A stretch of DNA of 64,000 bases from Marinobacter qingdaonensis (GTDB lineage Bacteria > Pseudomonadota > Gammaproteobacteria > Pseudomonadales > Oleiphilaceae). The notes beneath the pieces are model-generated. The model did not search any database. It saw only the letters and a list, made by a program, of their open reading frames with translations, and was not told the origin of the DNA. The stretch is from the NCBI RefSeq assembly GCF_034555935.1, contig NZ_JAYDCJ010000003.1:1-64000 (forward strand). The letters are read 5' to 3'. A program made the translations under genes and the position numbers. Shown here piece by piece: positions 22,070-61,614 of this stretch (within the stretch, counting starts at the first letter, position 1; every line of letters starts with the position of its first letter).

Positions 22070-22246
22070 ATGTACATCTACCGTCTGGTTTTCCTGTTGG
22101 TTCTGGCCATCTACATATTTTCGCCCAACATCCTCGACTGGTGGACCTCACCGGGCAATGCCTGGTATAGCCCCTACATCATCTGGGCGGGCCTGATTGC
22201 GATCGGCTTTTGGCTGGAATGGCGGCGAGCCCCCAATGAGTTTTAG
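22070..22246 (+). CDS. cbrX: CbrX-like small membrane protein upstream of CbrA
   Basis: A 58-residue protein (MYIYRLVFLLVLAIYIFSPN at its start) with two predicted transmembrane segments (about 5-21 and 36-50) joined by a Trp-rich loop, and a basic C tail (EWRRAPNEF). The reading frame overlaps the cbrA start by 11 bp (ATG 22236, stop 22244-22246), so the two are probably translationally coupled. In Pseudomonas a small gene called cbrX occupies this position. Whether the peptide has its own role or only couples translation cannot be told here. Confidence 0.75.
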   Translation: MYIYRLVFLLVLAIYIFSPNILDWWTSPGNAWYSPYIIWAGLIAIGFWLEWRRAPNEF

Positions 22247-25199
22247 CGCCACCAATCTGCTTGTCGCCAGCCTGCTGTACCTGATCGTCCTGTTCGGCAT
22301 TGCCTGGGTGACCGAACGGGGCCTGATTCCCCGCTACTGGGTACGCCATCCCTTGGTGTACACGCTCAGCCTGGGTGTGTACGCCGGCATCTGGGCGGTC
22401 TACGCCGCGGTCGGGATTGCCGCCGAAACCGGGTACGGCTTCCTGGCCTATTACCTGGGCATCAGTGGCGCCTTCCTGCTGGCGCCGGTGCTGCTCAACC
22501 CGATCCTGCGCATCGGCCGGGCCTACCAGCTGACCTCCCTGGCTGACCTGTTTGCCTACCGCTATCGCAGCCAGTGGGCCGGCACCCTGGTCACCCTGTG
22601 CTCCGGCGGCGCCATCCTGGCCCTGCTGAGCATGCAGATCCAGGCGGTCACCACGTCCGCCAGCATCCTGGCCCCGGACACCTCCCCCAACCTGATCAGC
22701 GTGATGTTCAGCCTGACCGTGGTGCTGTTCGCCATGCTCTTCGGCGCCCGCCGGGACCAGACGTCGGAAAACCACCAGGGCCTGGTGCTGGCCATCGCCT
22801 TTGATTCCCTGGTGAAGCTGGTGGCGCTGCTGGTGCTGGGCGGAGTGATCCTGTTCGGTGTGTTCGGGGGCATGGACGGCCTGGACGCCTGGCTGCTGAG
22901 CAACAGCTCGCCGGCGACCACCATGACCCTGAGCGTGGACGACGGCAGCTGGCGGGCGGTGATGCTGATGTCCTTTGCCGGCGCCCTGGTGCTGCCGCAC
23001 ATGTACCACATGACCTTCAGCGAGAACCCGTCGCCCAAGGCCCTGGCCAAGGCCAGCTGGGGTCTGCCCCTGTACCTGCTGTTGCTGGGCCTGCCGGTAC
23101 CGCTGATTCTCTGGGGCGGCCAGGCGCTGGAAGTGACCACCGGCCCCAGCTTCTTCAGCCTGGGCACGGCGCAGGCCCTGGACAACCCCTGGCTGACCCT
23201 GCTCATGTACATTGCCGGGTTGTCGGCCGCCAGCGGCCTGATGATCGTCAGCACCCTGGCCCTGGCCGGCATGGTGCTCAACCACGTGGTGCTGCCCCTG
23301 AAGACCCCGCGGGAACAGGGCGACATCTACCGCTGGCTGCAGTGGATCAAGCGCCTGCTCATCGCGGTGATCATCTTTACCGCCCTGCTGTTCCACGAGA
23401 CCCTGGGCAAAAACCTGGACCTGTCGATTCTCGGCATCATTTCCCTGTCCGGTACCCTGCAGTTACTGCCCGGCGCCCTGGGCGTCATCTACTGGCCCGA
23501 GGGCAACCGCCGGGGCCTGATCGCCGGCCTGGTCACGGGACTGGCGATCTGGGTGGTGACCCTGGTGCTGCCGTTCTCCAACACCGTCAATCTGCTCGGC
23601 CTGCTGGAGGCACCGCTGGTGCCGGACTACAGCAACTGGCACATCTTCACCTTCATCAGCCTGACCGCCAACGTGGCGGTGTTCGCCCTGATCTCCATGG
23701 TGAGCACCAGCACCAGCGAGGAAACCAGCGCCGCCCAGGCCTGCTCCATGGGCGCCCTGTCCCGGCCGCAACGGCGGGAACTGCTGGCCACCTCCTCCAC
23801 CGAGTTCGCCAAGCAACTGGCCGAGCCCCTGGGCTTCGGGGTGGCCAAGCGGGAAGTGGCCCGGGCCCTGTCGCAACTGAAACTGCCCAACGTGGAGTAC
23901 CGGCCCTATCAGCTGCGGCGGCTGCGGGACCAGATCGAGATCAACCTGTCGGGCCTGCTCGGCCCGTCCGTGGCCCGAGATATGGTCAAGCGACATCTGG
24001 GTTTCAAACCCATGGCCCGGGGCGGCACCGCCCAGGACATCCGCTACGTGGAACGGGCCCTGGGCGACTACCAGAACCAGCTCACCGGTCTGGCGGGGGA
24101 GCTGGACAACCTGCGCCGGCACTACCGGCAGACCCTGCAGAATTTGCCCATCCCGGCGTGCTCGGTGGGCGAGGACGGCGAAATCCTGATGTGGAACACC
24201 GCCATGGAGAGCCTGACCGGCATCACCGCCGACGACGTGGTCGGCGCCCGGCTGCTGGCCCTGCCGGAGCACTGGCACCTGCTGCTGGACGATTTCAATC
24301 GGGGTGAGGAGCTGCACCGCTACAAACACCGGCTGGACCTGCGCGGCAAACCCCACTGGCTGAACCTGCACAAAGCGGCGCTCAGCGGCCCCGATCACCC
24401 GGAGGGCGGCAGCATCATTCTGGTGGAAGACCAGACCGAAACCCGCCTGCTCGAAGACGAGCTGATGCACAGCGAACGGCTGGCCTCGGTCGGCCGGCTG
24501 GCCGCGGGCGTGGCCCACGAGATCGGCAATCCGGTCACCGGCATCTCGTCCCTGGCCCAGAACCTGAAACTGGAAACCGACAACCCGGACATCCTGGACA
24601 CCGCCGACCAGATCCAGCAGCAGACCCGCCGGATTTCCACCATCCTGCAGTCGCTGATGAACTTTGCCCGCACCGGCAACCACGCCCAGGCCAACCGGTA
24701 CGAACCGGTGGTGGTCCACCGCTGCGTGGACGAGTCCATCAACCTGCTGTCCCTGAGCGACCGCGGCCAGGGTATCCACTTCGTCAACGACTGCCCGCCG
24801 GACCTGCGGGTGCTGGGCGACGAACAGCGCCTGGTCCAGGTGTTCATCAACCTGCTGGCCAACGCCCGCGACGCCTCCCCGGTGGGCGGCAGCATTCGGG
24901 TCAGTGGAAACGGCGACGGCTACTCCGCTATCATCGAGGTCACCGATGAGGGCTCCGGGATTCCGCAGGATCAGCTCGATCATATTTTCGAGCCGTTCTA
25001 CACCACCAAGGCGCCCAATCAGGGAACCGGGCTTGGACTGTCACTGGTGTACAGTATTGTTGAGGAACACTACGGCAACATTCAGGTGGACAGCCCGGCC
25101 GACGCCAAGACAGGCACTGGGACCTGTGTACGGCTGCGACTGCCTGCCTACGAACCGGACACCGATTACACCGCCATCAGCCAGAACGAAAGGTCATAA
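22236..25199 (+). CDS. cbrA: sensor histidine kinase CbrA with fused transporter domain
   Basis: Sensor of the CbrAB two-component system for carbon/nitrogen balance. The 987-residue protein has an SLC5 (sodium:solute symporter) domain with about 13 transmembrane helices (about 1-500), a STAC-type linker (about 510-610), a PAS domain (about 630-740), a HisKA domain with H761 in VAHEIGNP, and a HATPase domain (NLLANARDA; GSGIPQDQL; GTGLGLSLVYSI). The start at 22236 is set by overlap with cbrX and by homology; the frame is open back to 22197. cbrB follows after 6 bp. In Pseudomonas the transporter part can carry histidine. Confidence 0.96.
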   Translation: MSFSATNLLVASLLYLIVLFGIAWVTERGLIPRYWVRHPLVYTLSLGVYAGIWAVYAAVGIAAETGYGFLAYYLGISGAFLLAPVLLNPILRIGRAYQLTSLADLFAYRYRSQWAGTLVTLCSGGAILALLSMQIQAVTTSASILAPDTSPNLISVMFSLTVVLFAMLFGARRDQTSENHQGLVLAIAFDSLVKLVALLVLGGVILFGVFGGMDGLDAWLLSNSSPATTMTLSVDDGSWRAVMLMSFAGALVLPHMYHMTFSENPSPKALAKASWGLPLYLLLLGLPVPLILWGGQALEVTTGPSFFSLGTAQALDNPWLTLLMYIAGLSAASGLMIVSTLALAGMVLNHVVLPLKTPREQGDIYRWLQWIKRLLIAVIIFTALLFHETLGKNLDLSILGIISLSGTLQLLPGALGVIYWPEGNRRGLIAGLVTGLAIWVVTLVLPFSNTVNLLGLLEAPLVPDYSNWHIFTFISLTANVAVFALISMVSTSTSEETSAAQACSMGALSRPQRRELLATSSTEFAKQLAEPLGFGVAKREVARALSQLKLPNVEYRPYQLRRLRDQIEINLSGLLGPSVARDMVKRHLGFKPMARGGTAQDIRYVERALGDYQNQLTGLAGELDNLRRHYRQTLQNLPIPACSVGEDGEILMWNTAMESLTGITADDVVGARLLALPEHWHLLLDDFNRGEELHRYKHRLDLRGKPHWLNLHKAALSGPDHPEGGSIILVEDQTETRLLEDELMHSERLASVGRLAAGVAHEIGNPVTGISSLAQNLKLETDNPDILDTADQIQQQTRRISTILQSLMNFARTGNHAQANRYEPVVVHRCVDESINLLSLSDRGQGIHFVNDCPPDLRVLGDEQRLVQVFINLLANARDASPVGGSIRVSGNGDGYSAIIEVTDEGSGIPQDQLDHIFEPFYTTKAPNQGTGLGLSLVYSIVEEHYGNIQVDSPADAKTGTGTCVRLRLPAYEPDTDYTAISQNERS

Positions 25200-25205
25200 C
25201 ACCCT

Positions 25206-26606
25206 ATGCCCCGCATTCTGATCGTAGAAGATGAAGACATTATCCGCTCAGCGGTGCGCAAGCTGCTGCAGCACGCCGGGTATGAGGTAGCCGACGCCGG
25301 CTCGGTGGAAGAAGCCGAGCGCAGTTGCGATCCGGAACAGTTCGACCTGATCATCTCCGACCTGCGGCTGCCGGGCGCGCCCGGCACCGAACTGATCAAC
25401 CGGGCGCCGAACACCCCGGTACTGATCATGACCAGTTACGCCAGCCTGCGCTCGGCGGTGGACTCCATGAAGATGGGCGCGGTCGAGTACATCGCCAAGC
25501 CCTTCGACCACGACGAGATGCTGGCCGCGGTGGAGAAAATCCTGGCCCGCAGGCGCTCCGCCGCCGGCCCGTCCGCCGACACCGCCGGCCCGGCCCGCAG
25601 CCCCGAGGACAGCGATCCGGCCAGCATCATGTTCGGCCAGTGCGACCCCATGCAACGGGTCTTTACCTTGATCCGCAAGGTCGCGCCGACCGAAACCACG
25701 GTGCTGATCCAGGGCGAATCAGGTACCGGTAAGGAACTGGCCGCACGCGCCCTGCACCTGCTCAGCCCCCGGGCGTCGAAGCCGCTGATTTCGGTGAACT
25801 GCGCCGCCATCCCCGAAAGCCTGATTGAATCCGAACTGTTCGGCCACGAGAAAGGCGCCTTCACCGGGGCGGTGTCGGCGCGCACCGGTCTGATCGAGGC
25901 CGCGGACGGCGGCAGCCTGTTCCTGGACGAGATCGGCGAGTTGCCGGCGGAAGCCCAGGCCCGCTTGCTGCGCGTGCTGCAGGAGAACGAGATCCGGAAA
26001 GTGGGGTCGACCCAGAGCCGGACCGTGAACGTGCGGATGATTGCCGCGACCCACCGTAATCTGAAGGCCATGACCCGCACCGGGGAATTCCGGGAGGATC
26101 TGTACTATCGCCTGAACGTGATGCAAATTCGCATCCCGCCGCTGCGCGAACGCCAGAGCGACATCCTCGGCCTGGCCCGGCGCTTCCTGGCCCGCCAGGG
26201 CGAGAAGATGGGCAAGGCCAACCTGAACCTGAGCCCGGAAGCCATGCGCGCCATGGAGCGCCACCGCTGGCCAGGCAACGTGCGGGAACTGGAAAACGCC
26301 ATCGAACGGGCCACCATCCTCTGCGACGGCGACGTCATCACCCCGGGCCTGCTCGATCTGGAACTCGAGGGCGACGAGCACATTCCGGAGACCCTGGTCG
26401 AGGGTAACAACGAACAGACCCGCGCCACCGACGTGGACGCCTCCAACGACCTGTCCCTGGAAGATTACTTCCAGCATTTCGTGCTGGAGAACCAGGACCG
26501 CATGAGCGAAACCGAGCTGGCCCAGAAGCTGGGCATCAGCCGGAAATCCCTGTGGGAGCGCCGTCAGCGCCTGGGCATCCCGCGCAAGAAGACCTCCGGC
26601 AACTGA
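25206..26606 (+). CDS. cbrB: NtrC-family response regulator CbrB
   Basis: Sigma-54-dependent activator paired with CbrA. The 466-residue protein has a receiver domain with phospho-acceptor D52 (SDLRLP), a linker (about 118-140), an AAA+ domain with Walker A GESGTGKE (170-177) and the sigma-54 contact loop GAFTGA (217-222), and a Fis-type helix-turn-helix at the C terminus (TELAQKLGISRKSLWERRQ). All activation motifs are intact. The next transcript is a sigma-54 RNA with upstream inverted repeats, the expected direct target. Confidence 0.97.
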   Translation: MPRILIVEDEDIIRSAVRKLLQHAGYEVADAGSVEEAERSCDPEQFDLIISDLRLPGAPGTELINRAPNTPVLIMTSYASLRSAVDSMKMGAVEYIAKPFDHDEMLAAVEKILARRRSAAGPSADTAGPARSPEDSDPASIMFGQCDPMQRVFTLIRKVAPTETTVLIQGESGTGKELAARALHLLSPRASKPLISVNCAAIPESLIESELFGHEKGAFTGAVSARTGLIEAADGGSLFLDEIGELPAEAQARLLRVLQENEIRKVGSTQSRTVNVRMIAATHRNLKAMTRTGEFREDLYYRLNVMQIRIPPLRERQSDILGLARRFLARQGEKMGKANLNLSPEAMRAMERHRWPGNVRELENAIERATILCDGDVITPGLLDLELEGDEHIPETLVEGNNEQTRATDVDASNDLSLEDYFQHFVLENQDRMSETELAQKLGISRKSLWERRQRLGIPRKKTSGN

Positions 26607-26662
26607 CCGGGTGGGGCAGAATCGAAGGCGGGCCAGCGCCAAAGTGTGAACCTGAGCTCACT

Positions 26663-26745
26663 TGTTACCCGCCTGTTCCTCACGGTAACACTTCACGCAA
26701 ACGGAACGTGATCTGAGTAACACTTTCGACCTATACGGGGTAACA
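26663..26745 (+). promoter_or_regulatory. predicted CbrB-binding sites upstream of crcZ
   Basis: A clear inverted repeat TGTTACC (26663-26669) N14 GGTAACA (26684-26690), then two further GTAACA half-sites at 26717-26722 and 26740-26745. They lie 50-135 bp upstream of the -24 element, the normal enhancer distance. Repeats of the TGTTAC/GTAACA type are reported for CbrB in Pseudomonas; binding here is an inference. Confidence 0.65.
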
Positions 26746-26796
26746 CGTACAAGCCAATAAATCGTAAACCCCTGTTAATTAAAGATTTCCAAAAAC

Positions 26797-26812
26797 TGGC
26801 ACACGGTCTGCA
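26797..26812 (+). promoter_or_regulatory. sigma-54 promoter of crcZ
   Basis: TGGCAC, 5 bases, CTGCA: GG at 26798-26799 and GC at 26810-26811 are separated by exactly 10 bases, as sigma-54 requires. Match to TGGCAC-N5-TTGCA is one mismatch. Transcription is expected to start near 26823. Confidence 0.88.
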
Positions 26813-26822
26813 AACTATTTAG

Positions 26823-27200
26823 CGCACGACAACAAAAACAACCGTGACACCGCAGCGGGAAAAACAAAAACAAAAAGCTGCGAGAGAACGCCCGGTAACA
26901 AAAACAAGTATAGGGCGTGAGCGAACTGAGTGTTTTGGGTACTTTGCTTTTTAGGGGTTCCACGGCACGTGTGAGTTGTAGAGGCAGAGAAGAATCGTCT
27001 TCCAGGCGACACTGTAACTACTAGAGACTCTCCCGCTGTCACTGACCGCTCTGTGTATTCAAAGCTTTCCGTTTGCGCTGCTTGACTCCGATTGGAGTTC
27101 TGCAGTGGGGTAAAAAATCAAGAAAAATCCCGGCAACAACAAAAACAATGCAGATCGTCAACGCTTTCAGGGCGGATTCGTGTACACGGATCCGCCTTTT
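26823..27200 (+). ncRNA. crcZ: CrcZ-like small RNA, Hfq/Crc decoy
   Basis: Predicted RNA of about 378 bases from a sigma-54 start to a strong hairpin terminator. It lies between cbrB and pcnB, exactly where CrcZ (about 400 bases) lies in Pseudomonas. It carries at least four A-rich, CA-type Hfq-binding tracts: 26829-26843, 26860-26877, 26895-26910 and 27133-27150, the last reading GCAACAACAAAAACAATG. No convincing reading frame spans it. Known CrcZ titrates Hfq/Crc off target mRNAs when poor carbon sources are used. Outside the A-rich motifs I cannot judge similarity to Pseudomonas CrcZ. Confidence 0.85.
27171..27200 (+). terminator. crcZ terminator
   Basis: A 12 bp stem GGCGGATTCGTG / CACGGATCCGCC with one G-U pair and a tight loop, followed by TTTT. 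It ends the predicted RNA 108 bp before the pcnB start. Confidence 0.88.
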
Positions 27201-27307
27201 GATTATCTGGCCCCTGGTATTTCGCCACGGCTTCCCGGCCAGACATGGGCAAATCCTGCACAAACCGTTAAACTCTCGGTTTTTGCTCACCGCAACCACG
27301 GATTTCA

Positions 27308-28699
27308 ATGCCTAAATCACTTTCCTCTTTCGTAGAGCAATCGGTCGACAAGCTCCGCTCAATCATTCCCGGTAGCGGAAAGAAAAAGTCCCGCCTGTAC
27401 CAGCGCCGGGAAATCCCCCGCGACCAGCACAATGTGTCCCGCTCGATGATCAGCGAGCCCGCCAAGAAGGTGCTCAACCGGCTGAACAAGGCCGGCTTCG
27501 AGGCCTACCTGGTCGGCGGCGGCGTGCGCGACATACTGCTCGGCGGCACCCCGAAAGACTTCGACATCGCCACCAACGCGACCCCGGAAGAAGTCCACGA
27601 CCTGTTCCGCAACTCCCGGCTGATCGGCCGTCGCTTCCGCATCGTGCACGTGGTGTTCGGGCGCGAGGTGATCGAGGTCACCACCTTCCGCGGCAACGCC
27701 AACCAGGCCGACGAAGACACCAGCGACGACGAGCACAAGACCAGCGAACACGGTCTGCTGTTGCGCGACAACGTCTACGGCAACCAGGAAGAAGACGCCC
27801 TGCGTCGGGACTTCACCGTCAACGCGCTGTACTACTGCATTCGCGATTTCACGGTGATCGATTTTGCCGATGGCGTGACCGACCTGCGCAACCGCCAGCT
27901 GCGCCTGATTGGCGACCCGGAAACCCGTTACCGGGAAGACCCGGTGCGCATGCTTCGGGCGATCCGGTTCGCGGCCAAGCTCGATTTCGACATCGAGCCG
28001 GAGACCGAGGCCCCGATCCGCAAACTGGCGCCCCTGCTCACCCACATTCCGCCGGCGCGCCTGTTCGAAGAGGTGCTGAAGCTGTTCTCCGCCGGCCAGG
28101 GCGAGGCCACCTACGACCTGCTGACCCGCTACAACCTGCTGGCGCCGCTGTTCCCGGAAACCGTCCGGGCCATCGACAATGGCGAGTCCGACGAGCTGAT
28201 CCGCCAGGCCCTGCGCAACACCGACGCCCGCATTGCCCAGGGCAAATCGGTAACGCCCTACTTCCTGTTCGCGGCCATGCTCTGGCCCGCCCTGCAGGCG
28301 GAGTGGTCCCGGCGCCAGGACCATGGCGATCCCGTGCAACCGGCCCTGCACGGCGCCATTGGCAAGGTGATCGGCCGTCAGGTCCAGGCCACCTCCATTC
28401 CCAAGCGCTTCTCCGGTCCCATGAAAGAAATCTGGGAGCTGCAGATGCGCCTGCCACGGCGCCAGGGCAAGCGCGCGTTCGCCACCATGAGCCATCCGCG
28501 CTTCCGGGCTGCCTACGATTTCCTGCTGGTGCGTGAAAGCGCCGGAGAGATCGAACCCGGGCTGGGCGAGTGGTGGACCGAGTTCCAGAAAGTCGACGAC
28601 CGGGGCCAGGAACGCATGCTCTCCGAGCTGGGCAGCGACGGCCCGAAAAAGCGCCGTCGGCGTCGCAAACCGGCCGCCAAACGTCCAGCCCAGCAATGA
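27308..28699 (+). CDS. pcnB: poly(A) polymerase I
   Basis: Adds poly(A) tails to RNA 3' ends, tagging them for decay. The 463-residue protein has the nucleotidyltransferase motif LVGGGVRDILLGGTPKDFDIAT with the two metal-binding aspartates, the RRDFTVNALYY block and the RMLRAIRFAAKL block of class II polymerases. The C terminus is very basic ([17 protein letters not shown]), typical of poly(A) polymerase rather than CCA-adding enzyme. It overlaps folK by ATGA. Confidence 0.96.
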   Translation: MPKSLSSFVEQSVDKLRSIIPGSGKKKSRLYQRREIPRDQHNVSRSMISEPAKKVLNRLNKAGFEAYLVGGGVRDILLGGTPKDFDIATNATPEEVHDLFRNSRLIGRRFRIVHVVFGREVIEVTTFRGNANQADEDTSDDEHKTSEHGLLLRDNVYGNQEEDALRRDFTVNALYYCIRDFTVIDFADGVTDLRNRQLRLIGDPETRYREDPVRMLRAIRFAAKLDFDIEPETEAPIRKLAPLLTHIPPARLFEEVLKLFSAGQGEATYDLLTRYNLLAPLFPETVRAIDNGESDELIRQALRNTDARIAQGKSVTPYFLFAAMLWPALQAEWSRRQDHGDPVQPALHGAIGKVIGRQVQATSIPKRFSGPMKEIWELQMRLPRRQGKRAFATMSHPRFRAAYDFLLVRESAGEIEPGLGEWWTEFQKVDDRGQERMLSELGSDGPKKRRRRRKPAAKRPAQQ

Positions 28700-60087: not shown

Positions 60088-60894
60088 TTAAAAACCGATG
60101 TCGATGTCGTAATCCATGATCACCGGTGCGTGATCGGAAAACCGGCTTGAGCCATCAATCCAGCCGTCCCGGATAGTATTGCGAATACCCGGGGTCAGCA
60201 GCTGGTAGTCCACCCGAATACCCGCACTGCGGCGAGCACCCTCGGCCTGCTCCGGCCACCAGGTAAACTGATTGCTCTGCTTGTTGATCTCACGGAAGGC
60301 ATCGACACAGCCCATTTCATCGAACAGGCGGTCCAGCCATGCCCGCTCATGGGGCAGGAATCCGGAAAAGTCGTGCTTGTGGTACAGGGGGCTGGCGTCG
60401 GTCACGTGATGGGCGGTCTGCAGGTTGGCGCAGAAAATGAACTGACGCCGCTTGCGCAGGGTTTTCTGCATGTGCAGGCCGAAACCGTCCAGGAACTCAT
60501 CCTTGTGGTCGAGTACCGTCAGGTCGTCCTCGCCCAGCAGCTCTTCTTCCCGACCGAGGGCGCAGGGCGCCAGCACACAGGCGACCGACACCTTGTCGAA
60601 ATCGGCCTGGATAAAGCGCCCTTCCCGGTCCGCCTGCTCGTTGGCGAAACCGTACATGATGGCTTTGGGAAAGTGACGGGTGTAGATGCCCACGCCGCCG
60701 TCCTCGTTTTTCTCACCATCGATGAAGTAGGCTTCGTAGCCCTCGGGGATGAGGTTGTAGTCCTCGATTTCGTAGGCGCGCATGCGGTGATCCTGGACGC
60801 AGACAACGTCCGCATCCTGGTCGGCCAGCCAGTTGAAGAATCCCTTGTCAACGGCTTGGGCGAGCCCATTGACACTGATTGAAACTACCCGCAT
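60088..60894 (-). CDS. crc: catabolite repression control protein Crc
   Basis: Crc works with Hfq to block translation of catabolic mRNAs and is itself a catalytically dead relative of exonuclease III. This 268-residue protein has an ExoIII-like fold, but active-site residues are changed: the Glu of ExoIII (E34) is D35 in VQDHR, and the GDMN motif is CANL (155-158). D229 and D254-H255 are kept, unlike in Pseudomonas Crc, which has Gln at the last Asp. It is divergent from pyrE and convergent with rph, the exact crc neighbourhood of Pseudomonas. A working nuclease is unlikely but not excluded. Confidence 0.88.
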   Translation of the reverse strand: MRVVSISVNGLAQAVDKGFFNWLADQDADVVCVQDHRMRAYEIEDYNLIPEGYEAYFIDGEKNEDGGVGIYTRHFPKAIMYGFANEQADREGRFIQADFDKVSVACVLAPCALGREEELLGEDDLTVLDHKDEFLDGFGLHMQKTLRKRRQFIFCANLQTAHHVTDASPLYHKHDFSGFLPHERAWLDRLFDEMGCVDAFREINKQSNQFTWWPEQAEGARRSAGIRVDYQLLTPGIRNTIRDGWIDGSSRFSDHAPVIMDYDIDIGF

Positions 60895-60975: not shown

Positions 60976-61614
60976 ATGCACGACTATCAGCAAAATTTCA
61001 TCGACTTTGCCATCCGCCGGAACGTCCTGCGATTTGGTGAATTTACGCTCAAATCCGGCCGCACCAGCCCGTATTTTTTTAACGCTGGGCTGTTCAACAC
61101 TGGCGACGATCTACTTCAGCTAAGCAAGGCTTATGCCGCCGCCATAGAACGCAGCGGTCTCAATTATGACATCATTTTCGGACCTGCCTATAAGGGCATT
61201 CCGTTGGCCACCGTGACCGCCATGGCGCTGGCTACAGACGGTAACAGCAAACCGTTTGCCTTTAACCGCAAGGAAAAGAAAGATCATGGCGAGGGTGGCA
61301 ACATTGTCGGTGCACCGCTGCAGGGCAAGGTGCTGATCGTGGATGACGTTATCACTGCCGGTACCGCCATTCGCGAGTCCATTGACCTGATTCGTGCGGC
61401 CGGCGCCGAGCCTGCCGGTGTGCTGATCGCCCTGGATCGCCAGGAAAAGGGCAACGGCGAGCTGTCCGCCATCCAGGAAGTGGAACAGGAATTCGGCATT
61501 CCGGTCGTGAGCATCATCCGTCTGGAGCAGGTGCTCGACTACCTCAAGGCCAACCCTGACTTTGCCGGCCATGCCGAAAACGTTGCCAAGTACCGGGATC
61601 GATTCGGAGTCTGA
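60976..61614 (+). CDS. pyrE: orotate phosphoribosyltransferase
   Basis: Makes OMP from orotate and PRPP in pyrimidine synthesis. The 212-residue protein has the type I PRTase PRPP loop [16 protein letters not shown] and [11 protein letters not shown]. Length fits E. coli (213). Divergent from crc with 81 bp between, which must hold both promoters. The DUF4124 gene starts 3 bp after its stop. Confidence 0.97.

Follow-up and report, generated by a model that had tools for sequence, protein, structure and literature searches.

The cbrB-pcnB gap of Marinobacter qingdaonensis very probably holds a CrcZ RNA gene whose plan recurs in many families of the order

Main finding

In this study of a 64 kb stretch of M. 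qingdaonensis DNA (the window), the sequence indicates that the gap between cbrB and pcnB very probably holds a CrcZ RNA, an Hfq decoy that would lift carbon catabolite repression. We consider it highly likely that this crcZ gene specifies an RNA of about 380 nt that is driven by CbrB and sigma-54 and titrates Hfq, together with Crc, off catabolic mRNAs. This reading is built on the observed gene order, the sequence elements and their conservation, the fold, a match to the Rfam family, a weak homology of the core and the presence of the protein partners. The Marinobacter crcZ is no outlier; it is one case of a plan that was found across many families of the order, with a 5' array of tracts that is displayed by hairpins, and its main interest lies in the order-wide spread that it reveals. 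To our knowledge, catabolite repression is little understood in marine and halophilic bacteria. According to the accessible part of a 2022 review, CbrAB is exclusive to the Pseudomonadaceae and has been described only in Pseudomonas and Azotobacter (PMC8871633). Among the literature matches listed, which were mostly non-subscription, the titles and abstract starts did not report CrcZ outside these two genera. In the same mostly non-subscription literature, no paper was found on CrcZ together with Marinobacter, and the only study that combined CbrB with Marinobacter was a metatranscriptome study that, in its accessible part, did not concern a Marinobacter CbrB. If our reading is true, a circuit called exclusive to Pseudomonas and Azotobacter in the 2022 review becomes testable across marine and halophilic bacteria.

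Layout of the gap

The features of the gap and its flanks are as follows.

25206-26606, + strand: cbrB, NtrC-type sigma-54 activator (NtrC-type models; likeness to CbrB of family f20)
26607-27307, + strand: cbrB-pcnB gap
26663-26668, + strand: CbrB subsite F1, TGTTAC, read from the letters (compare the P. putida subsites in the accessible part of PMC6296734)
26685-26745, + strand: CbrB subsites GTAACA at 26685, 26717 and 26740, read from the letters
26797-26812, + strand: sigma-54 promoter TGGCACACGGTCTGCA, GG-N10-GC, 10 of 11 consensus letters
26822-27204, + strand: predicted crcZ RNA, about 380 nt, start from promoter spacing, Rfam RF01675 match
26831-26842, + strand: A-tract 1
26860-26877, + strand: A-tract 2
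26897-26908, + strand: A-tract 3
27135-27149, + strand: A-tract 4
27171-27204, + strand: intrinsic terminator, hairpin 27171-27196 followed by TTTT; helix 8 paired in 98.8% of cells
27308-28699, + strand: pcnB (TIGR01942, 531.8 bits, over the cut-off)

The earlier note had described a TGTTACC-N14-GGTAACA repeat with two GTAACA half-sites, a sigma-54 promoter with exact GG-N10-GC spacing, at least four A-rich tracts and a strong terminator, and these were found as claimed: the repeat corresponds to the hexamers at 26663 and 26685, the half-sites to those at 26717 and 26740, and exactly four tracts were counted by a strict rule that requires at least four AAN triplets in one frame. Its reading of the whole as the full plan of CrcZ is supported by the position, the promoter type, the CbrB sites, the tracts, the terminator, the Rfam match and the weak match of the core. 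The length of the RNA was estimated from the promoter spacing, which puts the start near 26822, and from the end of the terminator near 27200.

Chance A-richness was rejected as an explanation on the basis of shuffles, the tract count of the window and conservation. When the gap was shuffled 1000 times with its dinucleotides kept, four A-tracts or more never arose (shuffle mean 0.10), and the whole 64 kb window, both strands included, holds six tracts, four of which are in the crcZ gap. Five CbrB hexamers, one of which overlaps tract 3, were likewise reached by none of 1000 such shuffles (mean 0.41). A sigma-54 site followed within 8-45 nt by an A-tract (hereafter the unit) is a single case on the + strand of the window and was not found on the - strand over the 64 kb; it was made by 6 of 2000 shuffles of the gap. 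The motif AAYAACAA alone proved useless as a genome-wide marker, as it occurs at 213 places compared with 209 in a backward control.

The proposed mechanism is drawn from the accessible parts of work on P. aeruginosa (PMC4063720) and P. putida (PMC6296734), and it is from Pseudomonas that we infer transcription, dependence on CbrB, binding of Hfq and Crc, and titration. Under a poor carbon supply, CbrA would phosphorylate CbrB, which, on the upstream TGTTAC/GTAACA sites, would drive the sigma-54 polymerase from the TGGCAC-N6-TGCA promoter. The terminated RNA of about 380 nt would build up and, with Crc, engage Hfq at its distal face through the four (AAN)n tracts; Hfq would thereby be titrated off the ribosome-binding sites of catabolic mRNAs, which would relieve catabolite repression.

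Conservation within Marinobacter

With PcnB as the query, 61 Marinobacter genomes (including that of the window) were searched, and 60 loci were taken, the fragmented genome G033 being left out. These yielded 59 assessable cbrB-pcnB gaps, the window's own counted (locus L015 is at a contig end), and the RNA lies between cbrB and pcnB in all 59. The sigma-54 site is present in 59/59 gaps, with 9 or 10 of the 11 consensus letters. A lack of conservation of the A-rich tracts among close relatives would, by the earlier note, have refuted the reading, and this did not occur: tracts 1, 2, 3 and 4 are kept in 59, 56, 58 and 59 of the 59 gaps at near-fixed places, starting at +6 to +10, +37 to +41, +72 to +79 and +295 to +327, respectively. 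The number of tracts past the start is exactly four in 52 gaps, five in four and three in three. The CbrB subsites accompany the promoter, with TGTTAC located 133-135 bp upstream of the sigma-54 site in 58/59 gaps (the exception is L065), six of which have a second TGTTAC 10 bp nearer to that site, while GTAACA lies about 80 bp upstream in all 59, about 112 bp upstream in 52 and about 57 bp upstream in 40. The stretch TGCAGATCGTC at 27149-27159, between tract 4 and the terminator, is also highly conserved.

Predicted fold of the RNA

The elements of the fold in the 5' part and the core are listed below.

26825-26846, + strand: hairpin 1, A-tract 1 in its loop, from a single-sequence fold only
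26851-26882, + strand: hairpin 2, A-tract 2 in its loop, two-sided changes at 3 of 5 pairs, paired in 100% of cells
26888-26918, + strand: hairpin 3, A-tract 3 in its loop, two-sided changes at 4 of 6 pairs, paired in 99% of cells
26920-27077, + strand: conserved structured core of 158 nt without A-tracts, helices 3-7, 170 bits with the core model R1, the window being among the R1 training sequences

The whole predicted RNA folds with an MFE of -120.4 kcal/mol (z -2.3). To test the fold, 49 of the 59 genus RNAs were aligned without constraint; 97.7% of cells form the 64 pairs of the named structure. Two-sided changes occur at 28 pairs compared with a shuffled mean of 13.2, a number that was reached by none of 500 shuffles. 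When the structure is slid by one to three columns, the pairing falls to 35-43%, a comparison that favours the unslid version because the pairs came from RNAalifold on the same 49-RNA alignment. The core between tracts 3 and 4 consists of a long stem with side hairpins, and the loop of hairpin 3 has a few inner pairs in the window's own fold. The first 100 nt of the window RNA fold better than shuffles (z -3.1), whereas no clear gain was observed for the 5' parts of the Pseudomonas-type L069 (z -0.6), P. fildesensis L193 (z -1.1), L080 (z 0.6), L082 (z -0.8) and L197 (z -0.5). The earlier note had described the body between tracts 3 and 4 as long and tract-free and had suggested that its folding may differ. 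No A-tract is indeed present there, but the body is not featureless, since it holds some of the best-conserved blocks, structure and a weak match to the Pseudomonas-type CrcZ; the suggestion about folding holds in part, as tracts 1-3 are in loops here, compared with the unremarkable 5' part of L069, both seen in single-sequence folds.

It is possible, though rather unlikely, that this CrcZ relative also has a second job, in which its rigid core and TGCAGATCGTC would act through base pairing or bind another partner. Such a job would fit the ten-base conservation means of 0.99, 0.97, 0.98 and 0.97 at 26922, 26932, 27062 and 27152, which are as high as those of the tracts, and the long stem, in which 12 of 19 pairs never vary; however, this conservation may reflect no more than a fold that displays the tracts, and elsewhere in the core the means drop to 0.64 and 0.69 (blocks at 27022 and 27032). 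A long pcnB leader instead of a separate RNA is very improbable: even though the RNA closely precedes pcnB in the same orientation in 59/59 gaps, it is closed by a covarying terminator (helix 8) that is followed by about 100 nt before pcnB, it matches an Rfam sRNA family, and its tracts are distant from the pcnB start. Still less credible is a small protein encoded in the gap, e.g., by the ORF from ATG 27148 right after tract 4, which we rejected, for despite the leader position of A-tract 4 and an ATG kept in 39/49 aligned RNAs, the ATG is missing in 10/49 rows, a stop directly follows it in one more (L018), and the compensatory changes fit RNA pairing.

Homology to CrcZ

The identification as CrcZ was examined with the Rfam model RF01675, which matched at 26861-27234 with 49.5 bits (E 1.4e-10). 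In this covariance search, which the earlier note had proposed, it is the genome's only match at E<=10; its score is below the gathering cut-off of 95 bits, which is an Rfam curation threshold and not a biological feature. At this lax E<=10, matches also occur in 9 of 14 control genomes, although none of these exceeds the cut-off. A second crcZ-type copy was found in the genome neither by Rfam at E<=10 nor by R1 at E<=0.01.

R1 is a model of the tract-free core that was built from 42 of the 59 genus sequences and searched against 83 fetched loci, 20 of which matched. The RNAs of family f20 reach 213-368 bits with RF01675, and on this ground the family was treated as Pseudomonas-like. In 10 of the 12 Pseudomonas-type cbrB-pcnB loci (9/11 of f20 and P. 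fildesensis L193), R1 matches crcZ at the corresponding place, which points to a weak homology outside the tracts; these matches have 16.7-24.1 bits and rough E-values of 4e-4 to 0.04, and 17.1 bits are obtained by the window's own core on its reverse strand. The f20 loci also include five second copies, and R1 matched none of them. R1 also matches 3/3 loci of f2, 3/5 of f34, L170 (f37), L105 (f38) and L091 (f8), and it strongly matches L104, which belongs to the window's own family. All matches other than those in the genus and L104 are weak, with at most 42.9 bits and rough E-values. R1 gave no match (E<=1, expected strand) in 63/83 loci, including those of f23, f36, f40, f44 and f47 and the named Dasania, Gilvimarinus, Alloalcanivorax and Vreelandella loci, so that for many families the link to CrcZ consists of position, promoter and tracts alone. 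At the whole-genome scale, R1 found the window's own family only (13/293 genomes).

According to the accessible part of PMC4063720, CrcZ of P. aeruginosa has 407 nt in PAO1 and six A-rich stretches, three of them in the first 151 nt, and sequesters Hfq. The Marinobacter RNA, of about 380 nt, is alike in length, in its position between cbrB and pcnB, in its CbrB sites and sigma-54 promoter, in carrying several Hfq tracts, three of which lie close to the 5' end, and in its weakly matching core. It differs in having four tracts rather than six, in reaching just 49.5 bits against RF01675 and in the stabler predicted hairpin loops of its 5' tracts, for which the comparison is with one Pseudomonas-type RNA and P. 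fildesensis. CsrB and RsmZ are multi-site decoy RNAs that titrate CsrA/RsmA via GGA sites; they share with CrcZ the principle of a multi-site RNA that titrates a translational repressor and differ in the protein, CsrA/RsmA, and in the GGA sites. CrcY and CrcX are extra copies elsewhere in the genome, whereas the Marinobacter genome has one copy and R1 matches no second copy of f20. Both are CbrB-activated decoy RNAs that are CrcZ-like in kind, as stated in the accessible part of PMC8871633.

Protein partners

The further protein-coding features of the circuit in the window are as follows.

22070-22246, + strand: cbrX, encoding 58 aa, its end overlapping the beginning of cbrA (phmmer match to PDB 10ed_X over 1-57 of 58, E 1.4e-17)
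22233-25199, + strand: cbrA, SLC5 transporter-histidine kinase fusion (PDB 10ed_A, residues 1-592, E 9.2e-196)
60088-60894, - strand: crc (PDB 4jg3 Crc, E 8.7e-70, best of 55 matches)

CbrA is an SLC5 transporter-histidine kinase with CbrX encoded upstream. In the PDB, 10ed_X and 10ed_A are labelled 'MFS transporter' and 'histidine kinase'; we read them as the Pseudomonas CbrX and CbrA because CbrX is reported to be bound to CbrA in Pseudomonas in the accessible part of PMC13022988. The nearest named homologs of CbrA are from Marinobacter (90% identity to M. sediminum), and one Marinobacter homolog carries the source name 'Two-component sensor kinase CbrA'. CbrB is matched by NtrC-type models, none over the cut-off among the best 25, and is 63-66% identical to the CbrB of f20, the crcZ loci of which exceed the Rfam cut-off. 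Hfq and sigma-54 (RpoN) are encoded elsewhere in the genome; by a hand count on the translation, Hfq has F at position 25 compared with Y in the PAO1 Hfq.

The crc gene lies only 33 kb from crcZ and is flanked by ORFs that, named by eye, presumably correspond to rph and pyrE (the pyrE-like ORF is at 60976-61614). Among the solved ExoIII-fold proteins, its product is closest to Crc. The accessible part of PMC6422490 names 16 Crc residues that contact RNA, Hfq or Crc, with their roles. Nine of them are kept relative to P. aeruginosa (A78, K135, R138, K139, R140, R141, E193, R229 and R233), so the basic patch of K135, R138, K139, R140 and R141 as well as E193 is unchanged; K77, a 17th residue outside this set, is also identical. 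The remaining seven differ, namely E142 (Q), K155 (V), M156 (T), W161 (L), R162 (Y), R196 (K) and R230 (N), and because of these differences the window's Crc may lack some of the known Crc-Crc and Crc-RNA contacts.

Distribution beyond the genus

It is likely that CbrX-CbrA-CbrB-CrcZ is a module of carbon control that is ancestral to the order as a whole (Pseudomonadales in the wide sense) and not an invention of the Pseudomonadaceae, with a fast-evolving decoy RNA that ranges from one to three tandem CbrB/sigma-54 units and from 1 to 19 Hfq tracts, displays its tracts by hairpins in Marinobacter and, in one family, has crcZ beside pcnB with a distant cbrB. We presume vertical inheritance of the module rather than transfer. 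RF01675 at E<=1e-3 was found in 60/293 genomes of the order, 14 of them over the cut-off, compared with 0/14 control genomes; CbrB (E<=1e-125) was found in 230/293 and a Crc homolog (E<=1e-40) in 223/293, a count that may include some ExoIII paralogs. In family f26 (e.g., G085, G123 and G154), a Crc homolog is present and CbrB was not found at E<=1e-125, while in G249, G306 and G325 of this family CbrB scores 1e-126 to 1e-129, the level of NtrC-type proteins from other orders; f26 perhaps has a Crc without CrcZ control.

The first locus set was biased, since it had been chosen by Rfam matches. The second was chosen by CbrB alone and comprises 28 order loci, which come from the better-scoring part of CbrB with weaker-CbrB families (f5, f10, f11, f15, f18 and others) left out, and 12 loci from other orders, sampled from 31 matches, with about 2.4 kb read downstream of each. 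A sigma-54 site followed by A-tracts was found in 23 of the 28 order loci and pcnB downstream in 24, whereas none of the 12 other-order loci had the unit or pcnB within about 2.4 kb downstream. In both sets together, 69/71 cbrB-pcnB gaps hold at least one unit compared with 0.08 expected from shuffles; nine of the 71 gaps come from the family of the window, and other families contribute several each. The plan of cbrB, a sigma-54 site with A-tracts, and pcnB is present in 26 of the 47 family codes of the sampled order (f1, f2, f4, f6, f12-f14, f16, f17, f20-f23, f25, f28-f31, f34-f38, f40, f44 and f47). A full-length CbrA (942-993 aa aligned, 37-74% identity) is encoded upstream of cbrB in all 20 family codes that were checked, the window's family counted.

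With P. fildesensis as the positive control, the unit was found in the named non-Pseudomonadaceae Dasania (two tandem units), Gilvimarinus gilvus and Vreelandella lutescens. The scan of named genomes gave few names because in most loci (73/80, L199-L271) the similarity to CbrA was mainly to its kinase part. In Alloalcanivorax (L196), tracts and CbrB hexamers are present but a clear sigma-54 site is missing next to them. In the 2.5 kb read of an uncultured Pseudomonadaceae contig (L198), cbrA-cbrB is accompanied by neither pcnB nor the unit, and the sequence of L194 ends too early to be judged. Of the second-set order loci, L135, L136, L147, L155 and L171 have no unit by the rule: L136 has a sigma-54 site with poor tracts, L135 has tracts and no such site, and L147 has tracts and CbrB hexamers but neither the unit nor pcnB.

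The sampled loci offer a natural series of decoy RNAs with a varying number of sites, which could be used to ask what number of Hfq sites a sponge requires. Between cbrB and pcnB, two or three sigma-54 and A-tract units stand in tandem in L138 (f14), L137 (f12), L150 (f37), L151 and L105 (f38), L152-L154 (f47) and L192 (Dasania). In family f8 (L091, L096, L097, L099 and L155), the unit precedes pcnB and cbrB is located elsewhere; in G241, cbrB is at C1:6962059, 187 kb off. In L171 (G087, f28), pcnB was not found in the 2.4 kb read, and 790 nt downstream of cbrB, on the reverse strand of the locus, there is a 790-nt stretch of 50% A with 19 A-tracts, the first of which lies 73 nt past a sigma-54 site (TGGCACGCAACCTGCT); with no open stretch of more than 83 codons, it looks like a giant CrcZ-type decoy.
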